A DNA stretch of 45,713 nt, from positions 1-45,713 of IMG/VR virus record IMGVR_UViG_3300031951_000309. The stretch is one strand, 5' to 3'. Every line of letters starts with the position of its first letter. Within the stretch, counting starts at the first letter, position 1. The DNA comes from a virus. The notes beneath the pieces are model-generated. The model was given only the letters and a program-made list of their open reading frames with translations, was not told the origin of the DNA and did not search any database. The translations under genes were made by a program, and so were the position numbers. This document shows, piece by piece, positions 1,073 to 41,194 of the stretch.

Positions 1073-1395
1073 CAGGCGAGGCGGATGAAGATTGGCGTGC
1101 GGGATCCGACGTAGGCGCCGGTCACGTTGAAGGACATGTGCTCGATCGCGTCCTCTTCGGTCATGCCGTCGCGGACCCGGAGGATCTCGACGCACATGTC
1201 CCAGTCGTAGACGACAGTCGGTTCGCCGGACTCGGTGATGCCGATGATCGCGGCGTCGAAGCCGTCCGCGACGAGCATCTCGCCGTCGCCCTGGTCGTCG
1301 GCGAAGTCGTCGACGATTGCACGGAGGCGCTTGCCTTCGGCCTCGAAAGGATCGGTGAACTTGATCGGCTTCTTGCTTACTCTTTTCTTAGCCAT
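1072..1395 (-). CDS. Small conserved phage protein of unknown function
   Basis: A 107-residue protein with a Lys-rich N-terminus (MAKKRVSKK), an acidic middle and the C-terminal pattern DAIEHMSFNVTGAYVG...PIF, which recurs in many phage hypothetical proteins. No enzymatic motif is seen. The ATG at 1395 is chosen because it follows a C/A-rich tract with no purine-rich SD, the pattern seen before other starts here. That tract lies inside the 3' end of the upstream nuclease gene and overlaps it by 19 bases. Its TGA overlaps the ATG of the primase-helicase, so the three genes are probably translated together. A frame extension upstream to 1767 is only a shadow of the nuclease gene. Confidence 0.75.
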   Translation of the reverse strand: MAKKRVSKKPIKFTDPFEAEGKRLRAIVDDFADDQGDGEMLVADGFDAAIIGITESGEPTVVYDWDMCVEILRVRDGMTEEDAIEHMSFNVTGAYVGSRTPIFIRLA

Positions 1396-9887: not shown

Positions 9888-12800
9888 TCAGCGCCCGTCC
9901 GAGCGTCCTGAGCTCCGGCCGCTTTCGCGGGATCCGGTCCTGGGGTCCGAAGAGGCCTTCTTCTTTTCCTTCTCCTTGCCGGCGACAGTGTCGACGACCA
10001 GCTCATTGAAGGCCTTAGAGGCCAGGGCCTGGTCTACCACGGCGGCGATCGGCGCCGGGGCGTAGGTGCTGACGACCGCCTGGGTGCCAGGAACAGCCAC
10101 GGATCGCGTGAGGCTCTTGGTGATCGCACGCTCCTTGCCGTTCGACTTGGTGGCCTCGCGCTCGAAGTTCTTACCGAGGCGCACGCCTTCGTCGATGATC
10201 GGAGGGAGCTGGCCACGTCGGGCACGCTGGACCGCTTCGGTCTTTCCGCCGGTCAGGCCGGTGTAGCTAAGGCCGTCGATCATGTGGTTGAGCAGTGTCT
10301 TCTTCTTGAGCTCCTCCTTGTCCTCTTCGTCGCCCAGGGCGAGCACTCGGAGAGCCAGGAAGGCGGCGGCGGACACGGCCATGGCCGGGATCGCGCTGGC
10401 GCGGGCGATCATGCGGGCACGCTCGGCCGGGCTGAAGAAGGTCGCCTGGCCTCCCTCGGACTCGGAGCCGCGGAAGCCGGACGCGATGTCGCGGGCCATG
10501 GGCTTTGCGATCTGCTCGCGGAACGCGGCAGGGTAGTTAAGGAAACTCATGACGGCCTTGCCCCAGAAGTTGTCCTGAGAGATCGCCTTGTTTCGTTCGC
10601 CGCCTGGCTTCATGGCTCGGTTGGAGCTGACCATGGCGCGGGCGGACTCCATGCGGATAGCCTTTCGGGCCATCGCGGCCATTGGGTCAGTGGTATCCGC
10701 GAGCATCTCGTTGAACTTTCCGCTAGCCCGGGCCTTTTCCCACCAGGTTCCGAAGGCGATCATGTTGGCGTCGTTAACGCCGGCACGGCGCAGGCGCATG
10801 ATAGCCTCGTTCCGGGTCGTCATCGCGTCACCCTTGTATCCGACCTTCTTGAGGGCGCGGGCCAGGATGTTGTCGCGGAGGAACTCAGAGACATGCTGAT
10901 CCAGACGGCCGGCGGCGTAGCGTGCGCCCATGGCGCGCTTGGCATTTTCAGAGGCCTCGATGCCGTAGGCCTGGGCCATACGACCGGTGGCATTGGAGAT
11001 CTTGCGCGCGGCCCGGTCGGTTCGGCTGTCCTCGCGGAAGTCGGCCTTATTGTCCAGGGCGTAGGCGCTGTTCTCCATGATGTTGTGCACGCCGGCGGAG
11101 TCCATCAGGCCGGTGATCCGAGCGAGCTCCATGTTGCCGGTCTCGCTGTTGAGATCGACGCGGAGGAACTGCTTAAGCAAGGCTCGCTGGCGCGGGCTTA
11201 GCTCGGCCAAGATCGCGGCAAACTCTTTGAGCATGACGACCGGTGCGGTGATCGCGCTGAACAGGTTCCCGGGGATTGCCTGGGCCTGTGCCTCCAGGAA
11301 GTTGGTAAGGAACGTCGACTTGAGCTTCGACATGTTGCTCAATCCGAGGAGCGCATTGGCCATGGCGTGAGACCCCTGGGCCGCAGGAGTGAGGGCTCCC
11401 ATGGCGTCGAGCACCATCTCCTTGATCCGGGTGATGTCGACCTCCTTGACGCCCTCCTTGCGCATCTGCTCGACCATGCTGTTCCAGGTCTGCCCATCGG
11501 CGCCGAAGCGCCGGGAGAACTCGGCAAGGGTAGTGGCACGGGCGATGTAGTTATTCCATGCGTGGCGCGGGTCGTTGTGGAAGTACTCGCGGAGCATGGC
11601 CCGGGCGGAGTGCTCGAACACACGGCTCTTCAGGAAGTCAGCCCTGTTCTGGTTGCGCGGGTTCGACGCCAGGATAAGGCCCTGGCTCTGGTCGCCGCCT
11701 TCGGCGCCGGAAAGGATCGCGGCGGCCAGGTCCTCAGCCTGCTGGCGGGGGTTGGCGACCTGGAGTTTCTTGATCTCCTCGAGCATGGCGTTCTTCCGGT
11801 CGGACATCTCCTGGGTGAAGCCGCCGTTCTGGGCCGCTTCCTGGTCGATCTGCTGGATGTACTTTTGGAGGCTCCGGATCCGCTTCGGGTTATTGTCGAT
11901 GTAGGCCTGCTCGGCCGTGTCGATGAATGCCTGCTCGTCCTTTGCGACGGCTTCGGCGTTGAACGAGTGAGGGATCGCGTAGCCCTGGGCGTAGTTAAGT
12001 TCAAGGCCTGACTGGCGCAGGTAGGTGTACAGCTCGTCGGACAGGGCCTGGAGGTTCTGCACAACCTGGCCGACCGGGCCGGACGGCATCGGGATCTCGC
12101 CGGCCAGGGCGCGGGCGATCGTGATGTCGAGCGCGCGGATCTGGTCCTGGCTGAGCTTGGCCAGGGGCTCAAAGGCGTCGGCCAGCTTGTTGCGGAAGAT
12201 GCGGCGATTGGCGTCGCGCTCCTCGTGGTAGGTCTCCTGGGCTCCGGCGTCGATGTTGCCGCCGAGGCGGTTAAACATCTCGGCCACGCGCTTCATTGTC
12301 TTGGACCGGGTGTCGTTCGCCAGCAGGTGCATGTTGGCGGCGATCGGGTTCAGGCCCTTGAGCAGTCGGTCGGACGAGGTGAATGCGATACCGCTGGCGA
12401 CGCTGATCAGGTCGCCCATGGCGACGCCGGCGATCGTAGCTCCCGCGGCCTTGGCGGCTCCGGTCGCGGCCTCGACAGTGGTCGGGGCAAGGGCCAGGGC
12501 GCCGGCGGCGAGGCCGGCCTTGCGCGCGGTGGATCCGGTCGACGGGACGTCCTCGTCGCGGGCGGACTGGATGCTTTCTCCGGTCGGGTTCCATCCGAAC
12601 TCCTGGATGCTGTTACCTTCAGTGAAAAGATCGCCGGCGCGAACCTGGCGCTCAATGATGTCAAACCCGTTCTGGAAACGTTCGCCGTGCTCGGCGGCGT
12701 AATCGCGGGAAGGAGTGACCCAGTTACCTGGGGTGATCTCGGTGGCTACACCCTTAGGTACAGCTCGGTAAACAGTCACCATGGCGTCCGGTTTGCCGCG

Positions 12801-15800
12801 GACAGACTGGATCAGCTTGTGGATCTTGACGTCGTCAGCTCGACGCGCGCCATAGTACCTGGCTCCGTTCGGACCATAGATGTCCTCGGGGTAGGTCCTA
12901 TCCATCGCATCCAAAGAGCCCTCTCCGTTGGTACCATCCGGAGCTCGGTGTGATCCGCGATAGTCACCATCCTCGTCGCGGGCGCTGAGGATCTGCGTGT
13001 CGTTATCCTGGACGCTTTTGTCGAACTGGGCCTTGAGCTGTCGGGCCTTGGCCTTGTCTCCGGCGGCGTTAGCGGCCTGGATCTCGTTGATAAGACGGCG
13101 CTGTTCTGGCGTGTACTGAGGAATGTTACCCTGGATCTCGCGGCGATCACGGAACTTTTGTCCACGTTCGTAGAAGTCTACTCCGTCGCGTTCCGCCATC
13201 TCGACTAGATCGTCATCGCTTCCTTCGTAGCCAAACTGATCGTACTCGTCAGTTGCCTCGGTGGTAGACTCAAGGATGTCCACGTTCTTCTTGCCGAGGA
13301 GCTTTTGCATGCTCTTCAGCGGTCGTGCTTTCGGGTCAAGAACAGTGGAGACGGCGGTGTCAACCGGAGGGTTTGCACGTTTCCCGAGCTCATAGACTTC
13401 AGCCTGTAGGATCGTGGAGAGGCCTCGACCCTGGAACTTCGGATCGACGTCGATCATGTCGAGACTTACCAATCCCTTCCCATCCTCGTACACCTCGGAG
13501 GTCATGTCGAGATTTGCTACCGGCTTGCCGTCGTACTTGATCTGGGCGGCGTAGCCGCCTGATCGTTCGTCAGGAGCGAAGGCAAAGCTGTAACGCGAGC
13601 GCTCGTTTTCAGGGATCCGGAGAGCTTCGCGGGTCATGAAGCCGCCATTGGCCAGGGCCTTGTCGCCGTGGTTAGTGAGCTCGCCACCTGGCGTGGTGAA
13701 CTCGAGGCCGGCCTGATCTTCGTCACGCGCGCTCAAGGCGGTATCCTGGTCGACCGATCCAGGCTTCTTGCCGACGACGAACTCCTCGTATGCTCCACGC
13801 AAGCCGACGTTCATGGCGATGACGTCGTCGACCGGGATCTCGCGGCGCTCGATGTTGCTTCCGTACTCCCTTGCGCCGGCCTCAGTTGAGTGCCAGTTCT
13901 GCGTCGCCTTCTGCTTCTGCTTGCCATGCGCCCGGTAGAGCACGATGGTGTCGCCGAACTGCCGGCGGAGAGCTTCGCGGGTCCTGTCGAAAGCGGAGTA
14001 CAGATCGGACGGGGAGACGTTCGCGTTCTCTCCGTTCATGATCACGTCGACCGCGGTATCCTGGTTGATGCGCACACCCAGGGAAGCCTCGGTGAGTGCG
14101 TCGAAAGCCGCCCGGCTGGAGGCGAGCTCATCGGACGCGATCTTCACGATCTCAGAAGGGATCGCGCTACCGCGCTCCTGCATCGGCTTAATAAGCTCGA
14201 GCTTCAGGCCTCGGCCGGCGCGCATCTCGAACCGGTGCGTCTCGAGCTCCATGCCGAGCTTGGAGTAACGTGCACCTTCCTCGCGGCTGAGGTTGCCCTT
14301 GCTGGCGAGCGGAAGGATCTCGCGCTTGATCTCCTCGATCCTGGCCTTGCGTTGCTCGACGGACATGGGAGCCTTGGCAGGCTCCTCGTCGCGGGCGCTG
14401 TAGACCTGGTCGCGGCGGATGCCGTAGGCGGCTTCGCCTTGCTCGGCCTCTGCGTAGTCTGGCGTCTTCTGCTTGAATACGATGTTAAGCGCGTCGATCT
14501 CATCGTTGACCTGGATGTCTTCATCGCCCTCAAGCTGTTTAATAACTTCGCCAACGGCTTCGCGGTGATCCCATCCCTTGAACGGGAGGAGGACCATGGT
14601 GGCGCCGGCCATCTTTGCGCGCTCGACGGCTTCTGCCGCGACTGCGACCTGTGCTCGAGGATTGTCGCCGGTGATCATCTCAACGGTCATGGCCCAGCCC
14701 TCTTCGAGCTTAGGCTGTTTGCGCTGGATCTTACCATCAATGTACTTCGGTCGCTTCGTAAAGACGCGATCCTTGTCCATGACCAGCTGTGCTTCCGCTA
14801 GGATCTCCCCGTCTTTTCCGATCACGGTCATGGAGTAACCGGTCGGGTCTCCATAACTGTCTGCGTCGTAGTACTCTTCGTCCAGGGACTCGGACGTGAT
14901 CCTTGCTCCGTTCGGAAGGTTCTTCTTCGCCGTCGGGCTGTAAAGGCTGTCGACACTTCCTTCCACTTCAAGGAACAGTCGGTCGGTATCCAGGAACTGC
15001 TTTCCGGCAGGCTCCTCGTCGCGTGCGCTGTACGCCGTCTTCTTGTCGATCTTGTACCCGTTGTACCCATCTCCGCCGACAGCGTTGAACGTGATGTCAG
15101 GTTCAGTCCTGGCTACGTGACCAAACAGGCCAAGCTCTTTCTCGTCGATCTCGCCGGCATAGTCGTGACTGACGAAAATGTCAGTGATGCCGGCTTGGCG
15201 GGCGCGCTCAAACAGCTCAGAGATCAGTCCGATCTTGGCGCTCTCCGGAGTTTTGTTGTTCATGCCACCCTCATCAGTGAAAAGGACGGTCAAGGCGCCG
15301 GCCGCAGATCCTGGGCCGCGAGGCTCAAAGCGGAACTGGATACGATACTCATGGACAGGCGATCCGCTTGCCGGCATGAGCTCCTTTGAGACTACTCGGA
15401 ACTCGCGACTTTCATTCCTTCCCTGCGGGCCCGAGTCACTCCCCTGCTGGACCAGGTGGTAACCGGCCAGGTTCTTTCTGGCCGTCTGACTAGCAGGAGC
15501 CAGGGTCGTGAAACGCTTCAGGTTGTACGGGTAAGGCATGCCTTCCGGCTTCGGGATCTCGCGGCCTGTTACCATCTCATCAAAGGCCTTGAAGGATCCG
15601 GCGCGCGACGGCTTAGGGATAGATGGACCTTCCTCATCGCGGGCGCTGAAGACCTCCGGTCCGGTGAACGGGCCGGCGTCGGTGAAGTCGTAGCCGCGCA
15701 TGGAGTCGACGCCTTCGCCCATGTATTCTGCGAGCTTCTCCTTTATGTAGTTGCGGGTCTCGGCCTTGATCGCCGGCGAAGACTGGTTCTTCTGGAGCAG

Positions 15801-18800
15801 GGAGATCCTTACGACGTCACCGGTCGCGTCGATGCGTCCATGGGCCGGACCGCTCAGCAGGCCAGACAGGCCACCCTGCTCTTCCCAGTCGAGGTGGGTG
15901 GGCATGCGGACCCAGCCTGAGGACATGCCGTCTTCATCGCCGTCAGTATTGACGCCGATGCCCTTGTCTTCGAGCTCCTGGACGGAGGTTACCTGTAGCT
16001 GTCCCTGACGGTCGACGGCCCACAGGAACTGCTTCGACTTGTCGGCGTCGACGTCATGGCCGACGTCGGTCCACCACTTGATCTGTTTCGGCTCAGGCGC
16101 GCCGGCGCCCTGCTTCGCCTTGAAGAAGGCGTCGCGGTAGCCGCCCGGGATCGGGGTGTTCTCGCCGTCGTCGCGGGCGGAGCGCGTGCGCGGGATCGGC
16201 TTGTTCGGCTCGAGCTTGTCGATGTTGTCGACGCGGGTCTGGCGATCCTGGTCGGCGTCGCCGAAGCGCGAAGCGCGGTAGTCGGCGGTCCGCTGATCGT
16301 CCATGACCGGGTTCTGTCCGCCGGTCCTGTCGTAGCCGTGGAGCTTGTCGCGCTTGAAGTCGGAGGTGTAGGCGCCTTCCTGGAACTTGTCCCAGATGGC
16401 CTCGACCTTGTCCTTGCCGAAGACGTCCATGAGCGCCTTCTTGATCTGCGACATGAGCTCCTTGAGCTTGGCGAAGACAGTCGGCATGTTCTGGCTGTTG
16501 ACGCGCGCGTCGTCCCGGGCCTTGGCCAGGTCGGCGATCGTGTCGGCGAAGTACTCCGAGAAGTTGGTCAGGCGGTAGGTCTCGTCCGTGCGGGCCAGTC
16601 GCCAGCGGCCGGTGTTCGTGTCGCGGCGGAACAGGCGCGAGACCTGCGACATGTCGATGTCGTTCTTCTTGGCGAAGTCGATCAGCTGGGCGTGGGAGAA
16701 GCTCTTGTCGAGCCAGTTGCCCTCGCCCAGGAGCTCGCGAAGTCCCTTCTTGTCCTTGAGCCACTTGGCCCGGTCGCGGAGGAACTGCTGGCGCGCGGCC
16801 TCGAGATCCTTGGCCGGGACCATGCGCTCGAGGTGGTGGGCGACCTCGTGGGCGAACGTGTGCTTGAAGACGCCGGGGCGGTTCGTGTTGCGTACGAACA
16901 GTTTGACCAGCTCGGCGGCGGCGTTGTACTCGCCGCGCACGCCGGCGCCAGGCTCGGCCTGGCTGACGCTGACGGCCAGGTTGTCGAGGTAGCCGTTCTC
17001 CATCAGCTTCTCGACGAGACGGAGGGCGGCGGTGGCCTCCTCGTGCGTCAGGCTTCCGCCTCGGCGGAGCTCGTTGATCAGCTTCTGGGCGATCTGCTCG
17101 TTTCCGCGCCGGCGCTGGGCCGGGTCGGTGTTGCCGGCCTGAGCCTGGGCGCGCGCGGCGCGCCGGCGGTCGAGCTCAGCGGCTTTGCGCTCGAGCTCGT
17201 TCCAGGTGGCTTCGTCGCGTTCGGACCTTACCTGAGGTCCTTGGGGACCTCGTCCAGTTGCTCCTTGGTCAGGCTCGACTCCATCACGCCCCAGTTGAGT
17301 GCGATCCAGTTGTCCCTGGTCCTGTCCAGACCCAGCTCCCTGAGCGCCCTGTCCGTCGGGTCGGAACCAGGTCGGACGGCCGTAGGCTCCATACGATCGG
17401 GCAGTCGCGATCCGGCGATCGGCTTCGGCTCGGTCGATCTTCCGTTCGGCATGGAGGGCCTCGATGAACTCGATCCGGGCGCGAAGGACTTCGGCCTCGA
17501 GCTGGGATCGGGCTGTTGCGATGTCGATCTTACCATCTCGGTAGGAGCTCCAGATGGATTTGATCTTGGTGATGTTCTGTTCATTGGATTTGTAGGTGGC
17601 AGGGAAGAGTCCTCGGACGGCTTCCCACGTGATCGACTGCATCTCTCGAGGCAGAACCCCGCGGGCCTTGGCCGCTTGACCATAGGCGTGGGCGTAGATC
17701 GGGTAAAGCCCGGAAAGGCCGGTCATGTCGGTGCCGCCGGCTCCGCCCAGGTTGTCCTTGACTTCGGGGTCCTCGCCGGACAGGGGCTCCATCAGGGCCG
17801 CGGCGACCGCGTGGGTGTCGATCGTGACCTGGCCGTCGCGAGCTTCGGGGTCAATGATGTTGTTGTAGAAGTTGCGGACCTTGTGCTCGCCGCCGAGCTG
17901 GGAGCTGATGTTCTCCATGCTCTGGTCGCGGACGATCGCGAAGCACTTTTCGATCGTGCCGAAGCCCCCCCAGGCTACGTCGGCGTCTTCGCCGTCCAGG
18001 CTGGTGAACGGGCCGTCCTTGCCGCCCTCGGGGGTGATGACGTCGTAGGAGCGCGGGTTGTAGGCCTCGTCGTACGCGCGGAGCGCGATGGCCTGGAGGC
18101 GGGCGACCTTGATCTCTCCGATCTTCTGACCGGCCAGTCCGAGGGCGTCGACGGCGTCGCGCGCTTTCTTGCGGATAGCGTTGGCGCGCTTAGACTTGTC
18201 CTTGTCGTCAGGGTACTTGGTCCGCTTCTCCTTTGGGATGCCGGCCTTGGTTTCCTGGAGGTCGAGCGCGATCTTCGCGATCGCGTTGCGGGCCTTCATC
18301 GCGTCGATCATCTTCTGATCGACCGCGTGACCGGACTTGTTCAGGATGATGTCGAGGGCGCGCTCCGCGAGGGAGACGTTCTTGTACCAGTCCATCTGAG
18401 GCGACAGGACGGCGAGCACGCCGGCCGCGGCCTCATGGGAGATGCCGTGCTCCTCGGAGAGACGCTTCGCGATGAGGTTGGCGCCGACGTACCAGAGCTT
18501 GCTTCGGCCTCGGATTTCGGGCGGCACGCTGTCGAACATGTGCAACAGGTTGCCCTCGACGTGCTTCATGAACGCGTCGATGACCTGGCGGTCCGACATG
18601 GACGGGTCGTGCTTGAAGCCGGCGATCTTCTTGAGGCGCTTCGCGAAGTCGCGCATCTTCGTCGGGTTTGAGTAGACAGTGGCGATGTCGGACTGGAGGT
18701 TGTAGGCGCCGGCGTCCTCGGTCGCGGAGACCGCGCTGGGGAAGCGGGTGCTGGCCAGCTTGGAACCCTTCTCGAAAGCCTTCGACACGGGCAGTCCGTC

Positions 18801-21215
18801 CAGGGAGTCCGCGATCTGGAAGATGGAGTCCTTGGCGTTGATCGCCTGCGTGGCGACCCTCTTGTTGTCCTTGAACTTCTCGAGGATCTCGGACCACGCC
18901 TGCTCGCGGGTCGCGCCCTCGAACTGCCTGGCCGTGATGTAGAGCGCGGCGCCGGACTCGAAGCCGCCCGTGAGTTTATCCTGGGTCTCTCCGCCTTCGT
19001 CGCGCCCGGACGCGACGGCGCCGGTCGCCCGAGGGAGACCGGAGTCGCGGAGCATCTGCTCGGCCGCGAACTTCATGTCAGCGACCTGGGTGCGCTCGTT
19101 CTGGTTGAGCGGCTTGACGGACTGGGCCGGCGCCAGGGAGATCGGCGCGCGGGCCTGGGCCTGGGGCTGGAAGGCGGACGCGACGCCGCCGGACTGCGGG
19201 GCGGGCTGGGCCTGGTTCTGATCAGGAGCGAAGCGCGCCATGCCGGCGGCTTCCTCGTCGCTGACGTCGACGCCGACCTGGCTGAGGCCGGCCTGCTGGG
19301 CGGCGAGAAGGCGGTGACGGCCGTCGCCGATCGCGACGCTACCATCCGGGCGGAGACCGACGCGGCTGGCTTCGAGCTGGCCGCGGTTGTTCTGATCGCC
19401 GAGGAAGGCGCCCGCCTGAGCGAGGCGCGGACCTCGGTTGTTGGAAAGCTGGTTCTGCGGGTCGCGGATGTCGAAGCCAGGGTCCCCCTGGCCGGCGGAG
19501 TCGAGGACCTTCTTCGGGTCCACCATGACGATCCGGCGACCCTGTTGCGGGGCGCGGTAGTCGGACGCGGCGGTCCCGGATCGGCCCTGCGTCTGCTGGG
19601 TCTGGGGAGCCTGTGCCTGCGTCTGGGGCGGCGTGAACAGGGAAGAGACCGGGGGGGCCTGCTGAGCCTGGGGCTGGACCGGGGTCCTGGCCTGCGCCTG
19701 AGGAGCGGCCTGGGGACCGGCCTGGGGGGCCTGGGAGGTCTGAGCGGCGGGCGCACCGGTGCTGGCCTGGGGAGCGCCAAGAGGGATGACGTCCGGGAGC
19801 TCCGCGCCGGCGGCGGGAGCTTCCTGGGCGCTGGTCCCGACCGGGGCCAAGGTGTCCGTGTTGACGCGGAGCTGGGGCGTGACCTGGGGTTGAGCCTGAG
19901 GCGCGGCCTGGGCGACAGGGGATCCGATCGGCGAGAGGGTGTTCAGATCCACGGCCATCTGGCCGGGATTGCCTCTCGGCGCCATCGGCGTGAGCGTGCT
20001 GGCGTCTACCTGCATGCTTGGCTTGAACGCGTCGGCGATAGCACCTCCGGCCTTACCTACACCAGCCATGATCGGCCCCTGGGTGCCGACGCCGGCGATG
20101 GCGCCGACACCAGCCTTGAACGCGTCCGCCGGGGAAAGCAGACCTTTGCTTTCCGCCGCATTGACCGCCTGGGCAGTGACGACTTCTTCGCTGACCTCTC
20201 CGGCCAGCTCGCTGGCGATCTTACCGGTCAGTGTCTTACCGCCGGGAATAAGCTTGGTGAGACCGCCCATCGCGGCCGTAGCTCCGCCTTCGGCGATGCC
20301 AACCTTGATGGCAAGTTTCTGAGCTTCGCGGTAAGCCTTTTCGTAGTCGGCCGGGTTCTTCTTGTAGGCTTCGACATACCCCTTCGGATCCTTGATGACC
20401 TCAGGGTTCTTTTTGATCAGCTCTTCAAGGAGCTTGCCGTCATAGGAGTCCATGCCGGTCAAGAGACCGGTAGCTCCCAGGCCCGCCGCGCCGGCTAGGA
20501 GTGCACCTCCGCCGGTGGCAACAGTGGCCGCAGTTGCGGCCATGCCTGCGCCAGCCGCCTTGGCTGAGCCCCAGGAGCTTTCCGCGGCGAGCTGGGAAAG
20601 AACATCGAGCGGATTGTTCGCGACGGCTCGCAAAGAAGATCCAAACCCCTGGGCCTTGTCGAACTGAGCCTTTCCGTAAGTCGTACCCTGGTGTCGGGCA
20701 AGGGTGTCGTTCACCTCTTTGAGCTCCGCCGTCTTCGCTTCCAGATCGGCGTTGAGCTGTGCAAGCATGGCGTCGCGGTTCTGGCGCGCGCGTAGTTCGC
20801 CGATGCGAGCCTGCGCCTGGAACGACGGGCTGTTGAAGTTCATGTACGGACCGCTCGGCATGACCGGGGTCGGCGTAGACGTCGTGAGTTTCGACAGCTC
20901 GAGTGTCTCGTCCAGGGAGAGTGGCTGTAGCTTCGAGATCTGCTCTCGCTTGCTCAGGATTGCCGCAAGTTCGCCGGCGAGATCCGCCTGAGTCTCGCCC
21001 TGCCAAGAACGCACAAAGGCGTCGCCGAGCGCGGTGCCGAAGTCGGTGACGTTTGCGTCTGCTCCGGTGCGAGCGGGACGACGAGACGCCAGGCCTCCAA
21101 TAGGCACACGCACAGTCATGCCGGTATCCGGGTCAAAGACCTCTCTGTAGTCTTTGCTCAGGTCCGCGGAGGGCCCGAGAGGAATGATGTCAGGTAGATC
21201 GTCGTTTCCGGCCAT
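9888..21215 (-). CDS. Giant polyvalent internal virion protein (3775 residues)
   Basis: One uninterrupted frame fills a quarter of the genome. In order: a Gly/Ala hydrophobic segment near 225-260; a Gln/Pro/Ala-rich linker to about 555; a ParB-like module with GDGRHRLLAAQQAG near 635; a 740-1330 region with SPQMDWYKN near 942 and TIDTHA near 1133 that I do not recognise for certain; a zinc metallopeptidase with HEVAHH near 1457 and a downstream EYFAD; several unassigned modules; an ADP-ribosyltransferase-like module (YRAHG, WHST, YEEFVVG, about 2380-2480); a GNAT-like module (VDPKFQGRGLS near 2590); a second ART-like module (VYRAVP, NWVTPS, about 2790-2870); and a helical C-terminal third with a hydrophobic helix near 3620. 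SARD[E/D] motifs (S1679, 1857, 2063, 2273, 2495, 2744, 2884) mark boundaries. Probably ejected with the DNA to act in the host. Confidence 0.88.
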   Translation of the reverse strand: MAGNDDLPDIIPLGPSADLSKDYREVFDPDTGMTVRVPIGGLASRRPARTGADANVTDFGTALGDAFVRSWQGETQADLAGELAAILSKREQISKLQPLSLDETLELSKLTTSTPTPVMPSGPYMNFNSPSFQAQARIGELRARQNRDAMLAQLNADLEAKTAELKEVNDTLARHQGTTYGKAQFDKAQGFGSSLRAVANNPLDVLSQLAAESSWGSAKAAGAGMAATAATVATGGGALLAGAAGLGATGLLTGMDSYDGKLLEELIKKNPEVIKDPKGYVEAYKKNPADYEKAYREAQKLAIKVGIAEGGATAAMGGLTKLIPGGKTLTGKIASELAGEVSEEVVTAQAVNAAESKGLLSPADAFKAGVGAIAGVGTQGPIMAGVGKAGGAIADAFKPSMQVDASTLTPMAPRGNPGQMAVDLNTLSPIGSPVAQAAPQAQPQVTPQLRVNTDTLAPVGTSAQEAPAAGAELPDVIPLGAPQASTGAPAAQTSQAPQAGPQAAPQAQARTPVQPQAQQAPPVSSLFTPPQTQAQAPQTQQTQGRSGTAASDYRAPQQGRRIVMVDPKKVLDSAGQGDPGFDIRDPQNQLSNNRGPRLAQAGAFLGDQNNRGQLEASRVGLRPDGSVAIGDGRHRLLAAQQAGLSQVGVDVSDEEAAGMARFAPDQNQAQPAPQSGGVASAFQPQAQARAPISLAPAQSVKPLNQNERTQVADMKFAAEQMLRDSGLPRATGAVASGRDEGGETQDKLTGGFESGAALYITARQFEGATREQAWSEILEKFKDNKRVATQAINAKDSIFQIADSLDGLPVSKAFEKGSKLASTRFPSAVSATEDAGAYNLQSDIATVYSNPTKMRDFAKRLKKIAGFKHDPSMSDRQVIDAFMKHVEGNLLHMFDSVPPEIRGRSKLWYVGANLIAKRLSEEHGISHEAAAGVLAVLSPQMDWYKNVSLAERALDIILNKSGHAVDQKMIDAMKARNAIAKIALDLQETKAGIPKEKRTKYPDDKDKSKRANAIRKKARDAVDALGLAGQKIGEIKVARLQAIALRAYDEAYNPRSYDVITPEGGKDGPFTSLDGEDADVAWGGFGTIEKCFAIVRDQSMENISSQLGGEHKVRNFYNNIIDPEARDGQVTIDTHAVAAALMEPLSGEDPEVKDNLGGAGGTDMTGLSGLYPIYAHAYGQAAKARGVLPREMQSITWEAVRGLFPATYKSNEQNITKIKSIWSSYRDGKIDIATARSQLEAEVLRARIEFIEALHAERKIDRAEADRRIATARSYGAYGRPTWFRPDGQGAQGAGSGQDQGQLDRTQLGRDGVEPDQGATGRGPQGPQVRSERDEATWNELERKAAELDRRRAARAQAQAGNTDPAQRRRGNEQIAQKLINELRRGGSLTHEEATAALRLVEKLMENGYLDNLAVSVSQAEPGAGVRGEYNAAAELVKLFVRNTNRPGVFKHTFAHEVAHHLERMVPAKDLEAARQQFLRDRAKWLKDKKGLRELLGEGNWLDKSFSHAQLIDFAKKNDIDMSQVSRLFRRDTNTGRWRLARTDETYRLTNFSEYFADTIADLAKARDDARVNSQNMPTVFAKLKELMSQIKKALMDVFGKDKVEAIWDKFQEGAYTSDFKRDKLHGYDRTGGQNPVMDDQRTADYRASRFGDADQDRQTRVDNIDKLEPNKPIPRTRSARDDGENTPIPGGYRDAFFKAKQGAGAPEPKQIKWWTDVGHDVDADKSKQFLWAVDRQGQLQVTSVQELEDKGIGVNTDGDEDGMSSGWVRMPTHLDWEEQGGLSGLLSGPAHGRIDATGDVVRISLLQKNQSSPAIKAETRNYIKEKLAEYMGEGVDSMRGYDFTDAGPFTGPEVFSARDEEGPSIPKPSRAGSFKAFDEMVTGREIPKPEGMPYPYNLKRFTTLAPASQTARKNLAGYHLVQQGSDSGPQGRNESREFRVVSKELMPASGSPVHEYRIQFRFEPRGPGSAAGALTVLFTDEGGMNNKTPESAKIGLISELFERARQAGITDIFVSHDYAGEIDEKELGLFGHVARTEPDITFNAVGGDGYNGYKIDKKTAYSARDEEPAGKQFLDTDRLFLEVEGSVDSLYSPTAKKNLPNGARITSESLDEEYYDADSYGDPTGYSMTVIGKDGEILAEAQLVMDKDRVFTKRPKYIDGKIQRKQPKLEEGWAMTVEMITGDNPRAQVAVAAEAVERAKMAGATMVLLPFKGWDHREAVGEVIKQLEGDEDIQVNDEIDALNIVFKQKTPDYAEAEQGEAAYGIRRDQVYSARDEEPAKAPMSVEQRKARIEEIKREILPLASKGNLSREEGARYSKLGMELETHRFEMRAGRGLKLELIKPMQERGSAIPSEIVKIASDELASSRAAFDALTEASLGVRINQDTAVDVIMNGENANVSPSDLYSAFDRTREALRRQFGDTIVLYRAHGKQKQKATQNWHSTEAGAREYGSNIERREIPVDDVIAMNVGLRGAYEEFVVGKKPGSVDQDTALSARDEDQAGLEFTTPGGELTNHGDKALANGGFMTREALRIPENERSRYSFAFAPDERSGGYAAQIKYDGKPVANLDMTSEVYEDGKGLVSLDMIDVDPKFQGRGLSTILQAEVYELGKRANPPVDTAVSTVLDPKARPLKSMQKLLGKKNVDILESTTEATDEYDQFGYEGSDDDLVEMAERDGVDFYERGQKFRDRREIQGNIPQYTPEQRRLINEIQAANAAGDKAKARQLKAQFDKSVQDNDTQILSARDEDGDYRGSHRAPDGTNGEGSLDAMDRTYPEDIYGPNGARYYGARRADDVKIHKLIQSVRGKPDAMVTVYRAVPKGVATEITPGNWVTPSRDYAAEHGERFQNGFDIIERQVRAGDLFTEGNSIQEFGWNPTGESIQSARDEDVPSTGSTARKAGLAAGALALAPTTVEAATGAAKAAGATIAGVAMGDLISVASGIAFTSSDRLLKGLNPIAANMHLLANDTRSKTMKRVAEMFNRLGGNIDAGAQETYHEERDANRRIFRNKLADAFEPLAKLSQDQIRALDITIARALAGEIPMPSGPVGQVVQNLQALSDELYTYLRQSGLELNYAQGYAIPHSFNAEAVAKDEQAFIDTAEQAYIDNNPKRIRSLQKYIQQIDQEAAQNGGFTQEMSDRKNAMLEEIKKLQVANPRQQAEDLAAAILSGAEGGDQSQGLILASNPRNQNRADFLKSRVFEHSARAMLREYFHNDPRHAWNNYIARATTLAEFSRRFGADGQTWNSMVEQMRKEGVKEVDITRIKEMVLDAMGALTPAAQGSHAMANALLGLSNMSKLKSTFLTNFLEAQAQAIPGNLFSAITAPVVMLKEFAAILAELSPRQRALLKQFLRVDLNSETGNMELARITGLMDSAGVHNIMENSAYALDNKADFREDSRTDRAARKISNATGRMAQAYGIEASENAKRAMGARYAAGRLDQHVSEFLRDNILARALKKVGYKGDAMTTRNEAIMRLRRAGVNDANMIAFGTWWEKARASGKFNEMLADTTDPMAAMARKAIRMESARAMVSSNRAMKPGGERNKAISQDNFWGKAVMSFLNYPAAFREQIAKPMARDIASGFRGSESEGGQATFFSPAERARMIARASAIPAMAVSAAAFLALRVLALGDEEDKEELKKKTLLNHMIDGLSYTGLTGGKTEAVQRARRGQLPPIIDEGVRLGKNFEREATKSNGKERAITKSLTRSVAVPGTQAVVSTYAPAPIAAVVDQALASKAFNELVVDTVAGKEKEKKKASSDPRTGSRESGRSSGRSDGR

Positions 21216-36818: not shown

Positions 36819-37012
36819 GCGAACTGTTGTGCAGAATAAAGTCATAAGTGCAAGAGAACGGGATGTAGGGAAAACTTTTTCGGACCGCAGATTTTTCCGA
36901 GCGGGGGGAGATACTAAAAATACAGCGCGGGCGAGGGGGACCCGGGGGGTCCGGGCCGGCCGATCGGAGCTCGACCGGCGGGCGCGATCTAATCGCGCGG
37001 GAAAGGCGCGAT

Positions 37013-37039
37013 CTAACCGCGCGCGCGGAGTTAGCACGG
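37013..37039 (+). repeat. 27-base direct repeat, copy 1 (contains a dyad)
   Basis: It runs from CTAACCGCG to GTTAGCACGG and is identical to 37122-37148. Within it CTAAC...GTTAG flank the palindrome CCGCGCGCGCGG, so each copy could form a hairpin or bind a dimeric protein. Confidence 0.8.
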
Positions 37040-37121
37040 CACCGCCTTGGGGAGGCAGTAACACGTCGACCGGATCAACGACTTACGCAACGATCGGGTG
37101 CCGATCCGGGTGCCTCGCCCT

Positions 37122-37148
37122 CTAACCGCGCGCGCGGAGTTAGCACGG
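37122..37148 (+). repeat. 27-base direct repeat, copy 2
   Basis: Identical to the copy at 37013-37039, 109 bases downstream, with the same internal CTAAC/GTTAG dyad. Confidence 0.8.
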
Positions 37149-37306
37149 GGAGCTCGATGCCGGCGCCGATCCTGGTCGGATCCGGCCCGCCGATCCCGGC
37201 CGGCTGGAGCGCGCGCGAGGTGGCAGGCGATCGGGGGGGGATGAGACGCTTTTGAGACCGGTAGATCGGCCGGATCCTGGTGCCGATCCGTCGACCGGTC
37301 GGCAGG

Positions 37307-37401
37307 TTGGCACGGACCCTGCTTGCACGGCGCCGATCCGACTTGGCACGCCCCCCTGCTTGCACCGGCCGTTTTTGACTTGGCACGGGCCCTGCTTACG
37401 G
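37307..37401 (+). repeat. Three tandem-like repeats, TTGGCACG...CCCTGCTT
   Basis: Copies begin at 37307, 37343 and 37380, a 36-37 base period. The first two continue to TGCAC; the third ends TTACGG. Helical spacing of about 3.5 turns suggests protein-binding sites. Copies 1 and 3 also resemble a sigma-54 -24/-12 element (GG and GC twelve bases apart), but repetition makes an iteron or operator reading more likely. Confidence 0.65.
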
Positions 37402-37667
37402 CGTCGCCCTGGTGCCGATCCTGGTGCCTGGAGATCGGCCGATCCGCGCAGGATCTACGCGAAGTTCTGCGATTTTTTTGCTATTGGATTTCACTGTCAT
37501 TCAACGACTTACAGAACGGACTGAAAAATGTCGTTGAACATTTCGGATCCGTTGACCAGTGTGCCGACGTCGCTGATGCCTACGGGCTGATCCCACGGGA
37601 TCGAGATCGCCGACTGGCACCCGGGAAGACGGGCCGTTTTTTGACAGTCTAGGGATCAAGGGAACAA

Positions 37668-37728
37668 GGGCGAAACGCACCGGCACGGGCCGGGCGTCGC
37701 ACCGGTCAAGCCGGTGCCTGATGAGCCC
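37668..37728 (+). ncRNA. Type II hammerhead ribozyme, copy A
   Basis: Linear order: GGGC (3' strand of stem II), core GAAA (37672-37675), stem III hairpin (CGC, bulged A, CCGG...CCGG, GCG), UC, stem I hairpin GCACCGG-UCAAG-CCGGUGC (37699-37717), core CUGAUGA (37718-37724), then GCCC, which closes stem II with the first GGGC. All conserved hammerhead core bases are present and cleavage is predicted between 37698 and 37699. It is circularly permuted with stem II open, hence type II. Stem II differs from copies B and C (GGGC/GCCC versus GAUC/GAUC) but still pairs. It lies 44 bases before the first gene of the plus-strand block. Confidence 0.9.
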
Positions 37729-37772
37729 AGTAGGTTCAACCAACCAAACCTCCCAACACCCCCCAAAAAAAC
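37729..37772 (+). promoter_or_regulatory. C/A-rich leader without Shine-Dalgarno
   Basis: Between ribozyme A and the ATG at 37773 the RNA is rich in C and A (CAACCAACCAAAC, then CCCAACACCCCCCA) and has no purine-rich SD. Similar unstructured leaders precede most genes here. Confidence 0.55.
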
Positions 37773-38027
37773 ATGAGCAAAAACTACAGCATGACCGCAG
37801 TGATCAAACTCGCATCCAACGAGGCCCAGAGCTGGCTCCTGACGCCGTTCACCCGCTACTCCGACACGGAGAAGGGGTACGACAAGGCGGTCCAGTTCCA
37901 CCGGGATCTGATGGACTTCGAGCTCGGATCCGACGAGCACCCCGACGTCCAGCAGGCCCTCGTCGACCGCCGGTGGGAGTTCGCAGACTTCTGCGAAAAG
38001 CTCCACGGCTGGGATGTCCGATGCTAA
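37773..38027 (+). CDS. Small protein of unknown function, 84 residues, first gene of the ribozyme operon
   Basis: It begins MSKNYSMTAVIKLASNEAQ and carries an acidic C-terminal half (LMDFELGSDEHPDVQQALVD), with two likely helices. No family recognised. The ATG at 37773 is the first in frame after ribozyme A and the C/A-rich leader. Its TAA at 38025-38027 is followed within two bases by ribozyme B. Probably an early or accessory protein expressed from a promoter in the repeat region. Confidence 0.7.
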   Translation: MSKNYSMTAVIKLASNEAQSWLLTPFTRYSDTEKGYDKAVQFHRDLMDFELGSDEHPDVQQALVDRRWEFADFCEKLHGWDVRC

Positions 38028-38029
38028 CA

Positions 38030-38081
38030 GATCGAAACGCCCCACGGGGCGTCGCCGGGTAAGGCCCGGCCTGATGAGATC
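38030..38081 (+). ncRNA. Type II hammerhead ribozyme, copy B
   Basis: GAUC (stem II 3' strand), core GAAA at 38034-38037, stem III CGCCC-CACG-GGGCG, UC, stem I GCCGGG-UAAGG-CCCGGC (38054-38070), core CUGAUGA (38071-38077), then GAUC closing stem II. Predicted cleavage lies between 38053 and 38054. It begins two bases after a stop codon and its end is 37 bases before the next ATG. Stem I differs from copy C by a compensatory G-C to A-U change. Confidence 0.92.
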
Positions 38082-38118
38082 AACCCAACAACCCAACCCA
38101 ACCCAACACAACACAAGC
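38082..38118 (+). promoter_or_regulatory. C/A-rich leader without Shine-Dalgarno
   Basis: Consists almost only of A and C (repeated CAACCC and CAACACAAC units) up to the ATG at 38119. No SD. With ribozyme B it forms a defined 5' end for the next gene. Confidence 0.6.
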
Positions 38119-38676
38119 ATGAGCAAGAAACACAAGTACGTCGTCCGCCTCCCGGACGGCAACCAGGCGACCCGCACGTCGCCCCGGACCTACACCCACG
38201 CGATCGCCGTCAAGGACGCTCGAGGCTGGGGGATCCTGGGCTACGCCGGCAACCTGGACCTGGCCAACAAGGCCTTCAACCGGGCCGGCAAGATCATGGC
38301 CAAGCACCGCCTGATCCCCGCCGACTCGAGCGACTACAAACACCGCTGGACCGAGATCCGCATGATCGCGGTCGACGCGCACGCCGTGACCGAGCCCAAG
38401 CCGGCGAAAGCCGAGCCGGTGAAGCCGGAGATCCCCAAGCCGGTCATGCGCGACGAGCGGATCAGCTTCGGGATCAAGTGGTTCCTGACCGAAGAGGACG
38501 CCCAGGCTTACGCCAAGGCCCACTCCGGCGCGACCTACAACGGCGGATGGTTCCACGGCATGTCCTGCGGTCGCGACAAGTCCTGGGACATGGAAGTGAA
38601 GCTCTGCCACCACGAGCGCAACGAGATCGACCGGTCCATCCCGGTCGGCTCGAAGCTCTACGCGGTGACCGACTAA
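38119..38676 (+). CDS. Protein of unknown function, 185 residues
   Basis: It starts MSKKHKYVVRLPDGNQATR, continues with a helical region (NLDLANKAFNRAGKIMAKH), a Lys/Pro/Glu-rich hinge (TEPKPAKAEPVKPEIPKP) and a C-terminal domain with GIKWFLTEEDAQAYAKAHSG and WFHGMSCGRDKSWDMEVK. It therefore looks like two small domains joined by a flexible linker. No family recognised. The ATG at 38119 follows the C/A leader; an upstream extension to 38014 would read through ribozyme B and is rejected. Confidence 0.75.
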   Translation: MSKKHKYVVRLPDGNQATRTSPRTYTHAIAVKDARGWGILGYAGNLDLANKAFNRAGKIMAKHRLIPADSSDYKHRWTEIRMIAVDAHAVTEPKPAKAEPVKPEIPKPVMRDERISFGIKWFLTEEDAQAYAKAHSGATYNGGWFHGMSCGRDKSWDMEVKLCHHERNEIDRSIPVGSKLYAVTD

Positions 38677-38679
38677 GCA

Positions 38680-38738
38680 GATCGAAACGCGACCGGAAGG
38701 CCGGCGCGTCGCCAGGTAAGGCCTGGCCTGATGAGATC
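38680..38738 (+). ncRNA. Type II hammerhead ribozyme, copy C
   Basis: GAUC, core GAAA at 38684-38687, stem III CGCG, bulged A, CCGG-AAGG-CCGG, CGCG, then UC, stem I GCCAGG-UAAGG-CCUGGC (38711-38727), core CUGAUGA (38728-38734), and GAUC closing stem II. Predicted cleavage lies between 38710 and 38711. It starts three bases after a stop codon. Stem III is longer than in copy B and unlike it in sequence, yet fully paired, which argues for selection on structure. Confidence 0.92.
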
Positions 38739-38772
38739 AACAACCAACCCAACCCAAAACCACACCCAACAC
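38739..38772 (+). promoter_or_regulatory. C/A-rich leader without Shine-Dalgarno
   Basis: Made of CAACCAACCCAACCC and ACCACACCCAACAC ahead of the ATG at 38773, with no purine-rich SD. Same design as the two preceding leaders. Confidence 0.55.
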
Positions 38773-39141
38773 ATGAAAGACTACGACGACCACACCCACC
38801 GCACCGGCGCCTCGCTGGTGCTCAAGCCCCGCGAAGCCGGCCTCGGCTTCGACTCCCTGGTCCGCAACCTGCGGATCCTGGAGGAAGCCTCGATCAAGCT
38901 CGGCGCCTGGCTGGACTACAACGAGACCATGATCAAGGACATGCGCGTCGACGCCTGCCTGGTGCTCGAGTACGAGCGCACCAAGCGCCCCGGCCTGCGA
39001 CGCGACAAGAGCTACCGCTACTTCCGCGACGACGAGCACGCCGAGAAGGTCCTGGCCGGCAAGGTCCAGCAGATCGCCGGCTACGCGGATCACCTGGGCT
39101 TCGACGTGATCGTCGGCGCCACCTACCACGAGGAGCTCTAA
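38773..39141 (+). CDS. Protein of unknown function, 122 residues
   Basis: It begins MKDYDDHTHRTGASLVLK, has a helical middle (LRILEEASIKLGAWLDYNE) and a conserved-looking centre ACLVLEYERTKRPGLRRDK. No domain recognised; an alpha/beta fold is likely. The ATG at 38773 follows ribozyme C and its C/A leader. It is the last gene to be preceded by a ribozyme. Confidence 0.7.
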   Translation: MKDYDDHTHRTGASLVLKPREAGLGFDSLVRNLRILEEASIKLGAWLDYNETMIKDMRVDACLVLEYERTKRPGLRRDKSYRYFRDDEHAEKVLAGKVQQIAGYADHLGFDVIVGATYHEEL

Positions 39142-39145
39142 GACC

Positions 39146-39229
39146 ATGCGCCACCTCAAAGACGCCTTGACGGCGCTCGCGATCCTGGCCATCGCTTGGA
39201 TCTTCGCCGTCTTCCTTCTCAGCCTCTAA
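39146..39229 (+). CDS. 27-residue membrane peptide
   Basis: MRHLKDALTALAILAIAW then IFAVFLLSL is a short basic N-terminus and one hydrophobic helix. It fills the gap between two genes exactly, starting four bases after one stop and ending 12 bases before the next ATG. No homology can be assessed by eye for something this small. It may be a membrane-acting regulator or an inhibitor. Confidence 0.5.
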   Translation: MRHLKDALTALAILAIAWIFAVFLLSL

Positions 39230-39241
39230 CCCCCAACACAC

Positions 39242-39481
39242 ATGAGCACCAACAAGCACAAGCACAAGCTGAGCGACCTCCGCAAGTTCGCCGGCACCCT
39301 CGGCCTCGAGATCGCCAAGTACAGCCCCGGCGACGGGCGCACGCGGTACAAGCTGGTCCGGATCGGCCAGCAGTACTTCGAGACGGACGGCTACTACCGG
39401 CCGACGACCCTGAGCGAGGCGCACGCGTTCCTGGCCGGCATGGCCTTCCGCAAGCACGTCACGGAAGGGGGCCAGGTATGA
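39242..39481 (+). CDS. Small protein of unknown function, 79 residues
   Basis: MSTNKHKHKLSDLRKFAGTL then EIAKYSPGDGRTRYKLVRIG is a basic small protein, probably DNA- or RNA-binding by charge. The ATG at 39242 follows CCCCCAACACAC. Its TGA overlaps the next start (ATGA). Confidence 0.65.
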   Translation: MSTNKHKHKLSDLRKFAGTLGLEIAKYSPGDGRTRYKLVRIGQQYFETDGYYRPTTLSEAHAFLAGMAFRKHVTEGGQV

Positions 39482-39882
39482 TCCTCGCGATCACCCTGTC
39501 CAACCAGGCCGGCGAGATCGCCGAAGGTAAGGGGTCGCCTCTCGAGGCGGTCCTGATCCTCCGGGAGCTCGTCAAGGCCTGGGGCAAAGAGGACCTGCAC
39601 CTGTCCTGGCCGATCGGAGCCGGCACCGGTGGCCTGACCATCCCGGCCGGCCAGTCCTTCGACGACGCGATCCTGAGCGCCAAGGCGGAACTTGAGGACC
39701 CGGACCTGGTCTTCGACGACCCGGCCGAGGAGGACATGGCCCGCGTGATCGTGCGCGCCCTGTACATGGCCGTTCTGATCGACGGGGCCGAAGTGGTCAT
39801 CGACGAGGGCGACCACTCCGAAGACACCGGCGCCCGGTACGACCGGTACGACGAGCTCGAGGAGGGCGAAAGCTACAACTGA
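39478..39882 (+). CDS. Acidic protein of unknown function, 134 residues
   Basis: It starts MILAITLSNQAGEIAEGKG and ends in a strongly acidic tail (DGAEVVIDEGDHSEDTG...ELEEGES). The acidic C-terminus resembles DNA mimics or inhibitors in charge only. The start overlaps the previous stop (ATGA), so translation is coupled. Confidence 0.65.
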   Translation: MILAITLSNQAGEIAEGKGSPLEAVLILRELVKAWGKEDLHLSWPIGAGTGGLTIPAGQSFDDAILSAKAELEDPDLVFDDPAEEDMARVIVRALYMAVLIDGAEVVIDEGDHSEDTGARYDRYDELEEGESYN

Positions 39883-39884
39883 CC

Positions 39885-40103
39885 ATGGCCAGCAAGATCA
39901 CCCGGTACGACCTGGTCGACCTGAATGAGGGGACCCAGGAGCCTGAGGCCTGGGACATGGCGCCGGCCAAGCGCGGAGTCTACGTCGAGTACGAAGACCA
40001 CATGGCCGTCGTCCGCGAGCTCAAGCGCGAGATCGCGATCCTCAAGGGCCTCCCCACCGGCGAGGATCCGCCCGCCTCCCCTCATATGCCGGACGGCTAC
40101 TGA
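39885..40103 (+). CDS. Small protein of unknown function, 72 residues
   Basis: MASKITRYDLVDLNEGTQ, then a central helix VVRELKREIAILKGLPTGED, and a Pro-rich tail. The central heptads suggest a coiled coil. The ATG at 39885 follows the previous stop by two bases. It is the last gene before the terminator. Confidence 0.65.
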   Translation: MASKITRYDLVDLNEGTQEPEAWDMAPAKRGVYVEYEDHMAVVRELKREIAILKGLPTGEDPPASPHMPDGY

Positions 40104-40118
40104 TCCCTGGACATTACG

Positions 40119-40148
40119 AACCCACCCTTCACCGGGGTGGGTTTTTTT
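40119..40148 (+). terminator. Rho-independent terminator between convergent operons
   Basis: AACCCACCC at 40119-40127 pairs with GGGTGGGTT at 40135-40143, loop of seven bases, then a run of T (40142-40148). It ends the plus-strand block and may act weakly on the opposing RusA transcript as well. Confidence 0.88.
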
Positions 40149-40152
40149 GTGC

Positions 40153-40566
40153 CTAGTCGATCCAGTGTGGCGCCGGCCGGTGAGATCGCCGGTCCTCGTT
40201 GAGGTAGATCAGGACGCCGGGCTTGGCGCCGTAGCTCTTTTTGATCAGGAGCTGGGACACGACCGCGTCGTCGGCCAGCATGCCGGCGCGCATGAGGCAG
40301 TCCAGGATCAGCTTGGCCAGGTTGTCGGCGTCGGGCCTGGACGTGTGCGCTTCGCCCTCCTGGCGCCCTTTGCCGGCCGGGAAGGTGAAGTCTAGGCCCA
40401 CGAACAATCCCCCCTTCAGCGGGGCGTCCTGGTGCCTTGGTTCGCGTGCCTTGGCCTCGACCGCGGAGATCCACCGCTTCGCGTTAGCGTCGGCGACGCT
40501 GATCACCCGGCCACGGACGAACCTGGGGCGGGGCTGAGGCCTGGGGATCCCGTCGACCTGGAGCAT
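40153..40566 (-). CDS. rusA: RusA-like Holliday junction resolvase
   Basis: A 137-residue structure-specific nuclease that resolves branched DNA before packaging. VDGIPRPQPRPRF opens the family's conserved N-terminus. RPDADNLAKLILDCL near residues 76-90 and ADDAVVSQLLIKK near 98-110 carry the catalytic aspartates. I choose the ATG at 40566 because it follows GTGCAACCCATC and begins the RusA homology; an ATG at 40596 would add 10 residues. It is the last gene of the early minus-strand operon, downstream of the iteron-like cluster. Confidence 0.88.
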   Translation of the reverse strand: MLQVDGIPRPQPRPRFVRGRVISVADANAKRWISAVEAKAREPRHQDAPLKGGLFVGLDFTFPAGKGRQEGEAHTSRPDADNLAKLILDCLMRAGMLADDAVVSQLLIKKSYGAKPGVLIYLNEDRRSHRPAPHWID

Positions 40567-40596
40567 GATGGGTTGCACCCTGTGACGCTGTGACAT

Positions 40597-40680
40597 GTGA
40601 CACCTGGGGGCAAGAGATCCGGGGATGAGCTTGCGCTGTATGGTAACCCAAGCGGATCGGCACCCCTAGGGGCGTGCCCC
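40597..40680. other. Gap with no gene upstream of RusA
   Basis: Short GC-rich stretch with CACCCCTAGGGGCGTG, an inverted repeat CCCCTAGGGG near 40662-40671. No open frame or clear promoter is seen. It forms part of the same gene-free region as the repeat cluster next to it. Confidence 0.4.
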
Positions 40681-40923
40681 GAGGACGCTAGGTACATACT
40701 ATGTATGTCCTCGGCGTCCTCAAGCGCTTCGGATCGAGGTTAAGTCACTGTCCTTTCGTCACTTACGTTGAGGACGCGGACCCCCAAAAAACATGCGTCC
40801 TCGCGTCCTCGTTTTTCAGATCGCATTTAACTCGCTGTCATTACGTCACTTACGGAACCGGGCCCGCGTCCTCAAATGCGCGAGGACGCACGAGGACGCG
40901 ACGAGGACGCGATCCGCGTCCTC
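40681..40923. repeat. Cluster of ten GAGGACGC octamers in both orientations; iteron-like
   Basis: GAGGACGC starts on the plus strand at 40681, 40770, 40882, 40892 and 40903, and its complement GCGTCCTC starts at 40714, 40795, 40803, 40866 and 40916. Ten exact octamers in 243 bases cannot be chance. Between them lie two copies of a GTCACTTACG motif (40758-40767, 40844-40853). Such arrays are typical of replication origins or of multi-site operators. The gap is gene-free and lies inside a one-directional operon. Confidence 0.8.
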
Positions 40924-41194
40924 AATCCAGGTCTGACAGATCCATGCCGTCGGTCTTGTCGACGATCGCGTCGAGCAGGCCAGGCACGTCGTCGACGTCG
41001 ATCTCCTCTTCGGTCGACTCGGTGATCTCGTGGACCGAGATCTCGGTCTGGTCCCAGTCGATCTCCCAGTGGCCACACTCCTCGGTCCCGAACTCATGGT
41101 CGAAGCTGTCGTCCTCCCACTGGCCCTCGATCTCGAGCTCGACATGGTAGTACGCGCCGGCGTGCTCCAGGTTGAATGACTTGGTCAGGCTCAC
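40922..41194 (-). CDS. Acidic small protein, 90 residues
   Basis: GTG start at 41194 overlapping the previous stop (GTGA). SLTKSFNLEHAGAYYHVELE, then a highly acidic sequence (GQWEDDSFDHEF, TESTEEEIDVDDV, MDLSDLD). The N-terminal half looks beta-rich. The acidity suggests a DNA mimic or binder of a basic partner, but no family is recognised. Its last codons overlap the tenth iteron octamer. Confidence 0.6.
   Translation of the reverse strand: MSLTKSFNLEHAGAYYHVELEIEGQWEDDSFDHEFGTEECGHWEIDWDQTEISVHEITESTEEEIDVDDVPGLLDAIVDKTDGMDLSDLD

Follow-up and report, generated by a model that had tools for sequence, protein, structure and literature searches.

Three type II hammerhead ribozymes, each in front of a gene, lie on the plus strand of the 45,713-base IMG/VR virus record that we refer to as the window (the whole stretch of DNA analysed), and we consider it likely, at a probability of roughly 0.78 judged from the sequence, that they are active and punctuate a polycistronic phage RNA by self-cleavage into end-capped units. 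A first-pass annotation of this DNA had placed the three copies at the positions listed in Table 1, and both inspection of the sequence and an independent scan returned the same coordinates. The circular order that it described, GAAA, stem III, UC, stem I and CUGAUGA with stem II as the open helix and a complete core, holds in 3/3 copies, and the cut sites that it named (37698/37699, 38053/38054 and 38710/38711) agree with the sequence positions, as do the distances of 74, 65 and 62 nt from cut site to ATG.

Table 1. Features of the ribozyme-bearing region of the window. Scores are bits against the Rfam family RF02276, with E values for a search of 3.4 kb.
Feature	Position	Strand	Remarks
Ribozyme 1	37668-37728	+	Stem II GGGC/GCCC; found by scan; 32.1 bits (E = 7.1e-4)
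Ribozyme 1, parts	stem III 37675-37697; C17 37698; stem I 37699-37717; CUGAUGA 37718-37724	+	
Gene 1 leader	37729-37772	+	44 nt, no SD
Gene 1	37773-38027	+	84 aa
Ribozyme 2	38030-38081	+	Stem II GAUC/GAUC; C17 38053; 35.8 bits (E = 7.9e-5); 2 nt past gene 1 stop
Gene 2 leader	38082-38118	+	37 nt, C/A-rich, SD-less
Gene 2	38119-38676	+	185 aa
Ribozyme 3	38680-38738	+	Stem II GAUC/GAUC; C17 38710; 25.0 bits (E = 0.053); 3 nt past gene 2 stop
Gene 3 leader	38739-38772	+	34 nt, C and A only
Gene 3	38773-39141	+	122 aa; predicted ferredoxin-like model
Three further genes of the putative operon	39242-39481, 39478-39882, 39885-40103	+	Ribozyme-free
Terminator-like hairpin and T run	40118-40144	+	Putative operon end; consensus match only

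Each copy begins with the 5' half of stem II and GAA; next come stem III, whose first base is A and whose last is U, then C17, the closed stem I and CUGAUGA, and the 3' half of stem II completes it. When both strands of the window were scanned for the core plus three stems, only these three copies were recovered, and a chance match was rejected because 4.57 Mb of first-order Markov sequence gave 0 matches in the same scan. The covariance-model search that had been suggested as a check gave a divided answer: RF02276, the type II model, was the best family for each copy, but all three scored below its gathering score of 37 bits, a value that is a curated cut-off and not a biochemical feature. 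For this reason a default Rfam scan lists no ribozyme.

Further evidence for the structure came from an alignment of 21 distinct copies, taken from the window and from phages related to it, in which the core is invariant except at position 7 (U/C) and H17 (C/A). Under the hammerhead structure 99.3% of the cells are paired (100% in stems I and II), a percentage that is biased upward because the copies were partly picked by a scan that requires stems; the same pairing is seen in the copies that precede homologues of gene 1 and gene 3, loci that were found via their proteins. The claim that the stems vary yet still pair was borne out by covariation, with 9/14 pairs varying on both sides and 71 doubly changed cells, where shuffles gave 20.5 ± 4.2 and slid controls 4-9. 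A covariance model built from the 21 copies (R1) assigned 67-70 bits to the three copies of the window and found no further ribozyme on either strand, the next best place scoring 13.6 bits. The three copies are thus type II hammerhead ribozymes. It is highly improbable that they are non-catalytic, hammerhead-like hairpins that serve only as mRNA-stabilising or attenuating stem-loops: each copy does contain two strong GC-rich hairpins, but CUGA(U/C)GA, GAAA, the 15.1-16.1 pair and H17 are present in 21/21 copies of the lineage, and a plain hairpin needs none of these.

The first-pass annotation had also put each ribozyme before a gene in one small operon. The placement before genes stands, but the putative operon runs on through at least three ribozyme-free genes (39242-40103). 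Its presumed end is a terminator-like site whose consensus is matched no less often in shuffled sequence, and we infer both this terminator and the single-operon status from the arrangement of the sequence. Sigma-70-like promoters were sought on the plus strand of 37000-40800, including the spaces between the operon genes, with none found, and none of the six genes has a Pfam, PHROG or PADLOC match. A structure model of the gene 3 product has a ferredoxin-like fold (pLDDT 83.8) and no Foldseek match at E <= 0.001. The region 5' of the operon includes a GC-rich stretch (window 36980-37160) with the repeated unit CTAACCGCGCGCGCGGAGTTAGCACGG, and 3' of the operon many iteron-like GAGGACGC/GCGTCCTC repeats occupy 40680-40930. 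Elsewhere in the window, the minus strand holds one open frame of 3775 codons (9888-21215), which is very long for a phage record of 45.7 kb.

A leader of the kind that follows the ribozymes, C/A-rich and SD-less, also occurs at a place that has no ribozyme (window 1395-1432, minus strand, with the ATG at 1395). Because it also precedes a ribozyme-less gene, this type of leader is probably the SD-less translation signal of the phage and not a part of the ribozyme. An SD-like motif is present in 0/16 leaders of the window lineage versus 29/35 leaders behind ribozymes of the same sub-type elsewhere (see below) and 77/91 behind other type II copies.

Comparison with related phages (loci are given by L numbers) revealed which parts of the array are stable. 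The close relative L211 (on one contig with L130; 94% for the terminase and 80% for gene 1) carries five ribozyme-gene units at this operon, and L213 and L210 carry three each, every ribozyme standing right behind the stop codon of one gene and ahead of the start of the next operon gene. Gene 1 homologues in L211 (80%) and L213 (65%) both sit behind a hammerhead as the first of the array, and the gene 3 homologues in L210, L211 and L213 all sit behind a hammerhead as the last. The middle genes (gene 2 in the window, three unrelated genes in L211, another gene in L213) are mutually unrelated by BLASTP, with the exception of a gene 2 relative in L210, and thus the first and last units are conserved and the units between them exchanged. 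Ribozyme 2 of the window and its L211 counterpart differ by one compensated pair and precede unrelated genes, which argues that cassettes are swapped while the punctuation stays. Stem I ahead of gene 3 reads GCCAGG, GCACCG, GUGGCG and GUGACG in the four phages, and it pairs every time. A tie between the ribozyme and the domain of gene 2 was considered and rejected, since the gene 2 relatives in L124 and L126-L129 are ribozyme-free and L125 has a ribozyme elsewhere. At E <= 0.5, R1 had no match in 80 bacterial loci that were fetched by terminase (best relative: a Rhizobiales contig, 55%), and no convincing ribozyme was found in the cultured terminase relatives Rhizobium phage RHph_N65 and Microcystis phage Mae-Yong1326-1.

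The exchange of middle cassettes between conserved outer units, together with the near-identity of ribozyme 2 in front of unrelated genes, could also mean that the main role of the ribozymes is that of a recombination or selfish repeat by which ribozyme-gene cassettes are swapped, cleavage being tolerated. We regard this as quite improbable, on the basis that the catalytic core is invariant and the stem changes are compensated, which points to selection on the folded RNA and not on the DNA sequence, and that the ribozymes before genes 1 and 3 keep their places.

As to how punctuation would proceed, we propose that each ribozyme folds co-transcriptionally in its stop-to-start gap and cuts after C17. 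Gene 1 would thereby be released on a unit of its own (37699-38053), as would gene 2 (38054-38710); a third unit, running from gene 3 up to the terminator, would stay polycistronic because the last three genes of the operon lack ribozymes. The earlier proposal that a polycistronic RNA is cut into units whose first elements are stem I and a C/A-rich leader is therefore retained as the best reading, but single-gene units are expected for genes 1 and 2 only. Because the open helix is stem II, both new ends would be capped by hairpins: the upstream piece would terminate in an intact hairpin III and a 2',3'-cyclic phosphate, and the downstream piece would begin with a 5'-OH and an intact hairpin I. 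Hammerhead products bear 5'-OH and 2',3'-cyclic phosphate ends, and terminal hairpins protect RNA; from this known biochemistry, stable new ends are likely. The C/A-rich leader that then heads each unit would be fixed, unstructured, SD-less and insulated from its neighbours. Cleavage in the cell, stabilised ends and insulated expression are what we infer from the arrangement. It counts against this reading that 4/18 consensus hammerheads were inactive in vitro (Perreault et al. 2011, PMC3088659), and in its favour that the 5' end of a halovirus transcript maps <=3 nt from a hammerhead cut site.

The chemistry of these ends also lends itself to a different fate, in which the excised gene units would be circularised into mRNAs by an RtcB-type ligase, in a retrozyme-like manner. 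RtcB acts on 5'-OH and 2',3'-cyclic phosphate ends, and genes 1 and 2, being flanked by ribozymes, would yield units with just such ends; moreover, HF2 haloviruses have a hammerhead as well as rtcB (PMC7230728). Such circles are nonetheless extremely unlikely in our estimation, given that Perreault et al. sought spliced or circular products and found none (PMC3088659) and that both ends of each unit would be closed in hairpins.

Folding predictions were made for the intact ribozymes and for their products. For ribozymes 2 and 3 the hammerhead fold is the MFE structure, and for ribozyme 1 the hammerhead (-35.1 kcal/mol) is set against a competing MFE structure that is 0.5 kcal/mol lower (-35.6 kcal/mol); in prefixes of the growing ribozyme 1 RNA the hammerhead hairpins are predicted to fold first. 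With longer flanks (38000-38120 and 38650-38780), the predicted MFE structure retains hairpins I and III and loses stem II. In the predicted folds of the downstream pieces hairpin I is retained, and the C/A-rich leader and the start are mostly open. A further possible hairpin, UGAGCC-CAGUA-GGUUCA at window 37722-37738, overlaps stem II of ribozyme 1 in its 3' half; the sequence AGT(A/C)GGTTC is kept before the gene 1 homologues in L211 and L213 and is absent at the other ribozymes. This hairpin might possibly be a switch or a product lock.

Hammerheads had been described in the first-pass annotation as sparsely reported in phages, which proved to be an understatement, as viral contigs hold at least 120 matches to one strict pattern, and arrays reach up to 11 copies. 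At E <= 0.01, R1 had 139 matches in 80 other viral loci, all of which had been fetched with a hammerhead pattern. In the contigs of other phages the type II hammerhead is placed between stop and start, an upstream stop lying <=5 nt away from 100/148 copies versus 84/2960 random places. From this stop to stem II the median distance is 2 nt in the window lineage, 0.5 nt for the same sub-type elsewhere and 0 nt for other type II copies, and from the end of stem II to the start codon the medians are 32, 24.5 and 23 nt, respectively. The genes behind the ribozymes are small and mostly without assigned function, with ArdA, ArdC, HU-type and GemA matches among the 107 tested. One contig (L060, IMGVR_UViG_3300017605_000570) holds up to 11 type II hammerheads between small genes, one per 250-700 bases. 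The cultured Rhodobacter phage RcWaterboi (L296, MW677528.1) carries an unannotated type II hammerhead of the pseudoknot type at 10394-10454 (RF02276, 65.8 bits), between the stop of gene 19 (HU-like) and the start of gene 20. As this phage is in culture, the general function is now testable.

What hammerheads do in bacteria and phages has been called an open question (PMC6155905). The strict order of stop, ribozyme, leader and start in many unrelated viral contigs, combined with the turnover of cassettes between fixed neighbours, favours punctuation and argues that phage hammerheads punctuate messages rather than being chance or parasitic motifs. The same adjacency might, however, serve regulation: a ribosome that ends translation at the upstream stop would cover GAAA and stem II's 5' strand, such that the active ribozymes would mainly bring about regulated and not constitutive processing, with cleavage dependent on translation of the preceding gene. 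With ribozymes 2 and 3 beginning only 2-3 nt past the stop, and type II copies in general at medians of 0-2 nt, a terminating ribosome would indeed overlap the ribozyme, and ribozyme 1, the first in the operon, has the stem II-competing hairpin, whose sequence is kept in two relatives. Yet close packing by itself explains the stop adjacency and the hairpin occurs in three related sequences only, and we think it unlikely that regulation of this kind is the main role.

The copies of the window share features that set them apart within type II. Their stem II has 4 bp and their loop I has the form U-NNN-G (UCAAG, UAAGG and UAAGG), with a stem I of 7 bp in ribozyme 1. In most type II copies a pseudoknot between loop I and the 3' tail is possible, although it does not define all of them (PMC3088659). 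We found such a pseudoknot (>=4 pairs) in 3/21 copies of the lineage (1.0 expected) and in 0/3 copies of the window. Likewise, it is present in only 3/39 copies with a U-NNN-G loop (1.8 in shuffles) versus 77/137 copies of the other type (18.5 in shuffles). Among these 39 copies stem I has 6 bp in 36 and 7 bp in 3, stem II has 4 bp in 38, and a G-C pair closes the loop in 37. We then considered a class of 55 copies set by a 6-bp stem I, a loop of 5-6 nt and a 4-bp stem II, and not by the A and U bases: an A stands directly 5' of stem II in 54/55 and a U comes first in loop I in 53/55, the A being common in the other class too (87/102). That the conserved A is a by-product of the stop codon was rejected, since A is present in 41/42 copies without a stop there. 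In the sTRSV and Schistosoma hammerheads a conserved A-U Hoogsteen pair involves a U "adjacent to residue 1.6" (PMC2553840). Taking the A next to stem II and the U of loop I as the equivalents of that pair, we suggest that this classic A-U loop contact is probably made in the sub-type as well, there with stem II open.

No hammerhead was reported at the Rfam cut-off in the sampled loci of this sub-type (L042, L044, L054, L061, L082 and L093), whereas the pseudoknot-type loci gave 30 matches at that cut-off, and a standard Rfam annotation run thus overlooks a whole group of phage ribozymes. We put at about even chances the broader proposal that a widespread and so far unmodelled phage type II sub-type, with a 6-bp stem I, a loop I of U-N3/4-G or U, a stem II of exactly 4 bp and an A-U contact instead of the pseudoknot, is the standard intergenic punctuation from stop codon to leader, capping both new ends and insulating the messages. 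Measured against Rfam and the literature examined, this sub-type is a new variant.

With the published type II family (RF02276; Perreault et al. 2011, PMC3088659) the window copies share the core, the permutation with stem II open, the closed stems I and III and the A by stem II. They differ from it in a stem II of 4 bp instead of about 2 bp, in the U-NNN-G loop I, in having no pseudoknot and in scoring below its cut-off. In its layout, with several hammerheads on one strand around individual genes of one putative operon, the array resembles the clustered hammerheads of prophages, such as the triple array around ardA in A. tumefaciens and those of A. caulinodans and C. scindens, where several hammerheads flank single small genes on one transcript and cutting into gene-length mRNAs was proposed (PMC3088659); since that report already described and proposed it, the arrangement is not new. 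For those arrays activity was demonstrated, the A. tumefaciens array cleaving in vitro and in E. coli (PMC3088659), whereas the present one is known from its sequence; here, all copies are of type II, the order of stop, ribozyme, leader and start is strict and the leaders are SD-less. Like the sTRSV (type III) and Schistosoma (type I) hammerheads (PMC2553840), the window copies have an A next to stem II and a U next to 1.6 in loop I, but with stem II open their A belongs to a single-stranded flank instead of a loop; moreover, the contact is a predicted one, and stem I of ribozyme 1 has 7 bp. Finally, RiboJ, a hammerhead-based 5' insulator, leaves a 5' hairpin and raises mRNA and protein (PMC6206723), and the cut predicted here at the 5' end of a gene would similarly leave a 5' hairpin before a fixed leader. 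RiboJ is synthetic, derived from sTRSV with an added hairpin, whereas the phage ribozymes are natural and of type II and would cap the 3' end of the upstream RNA as well.
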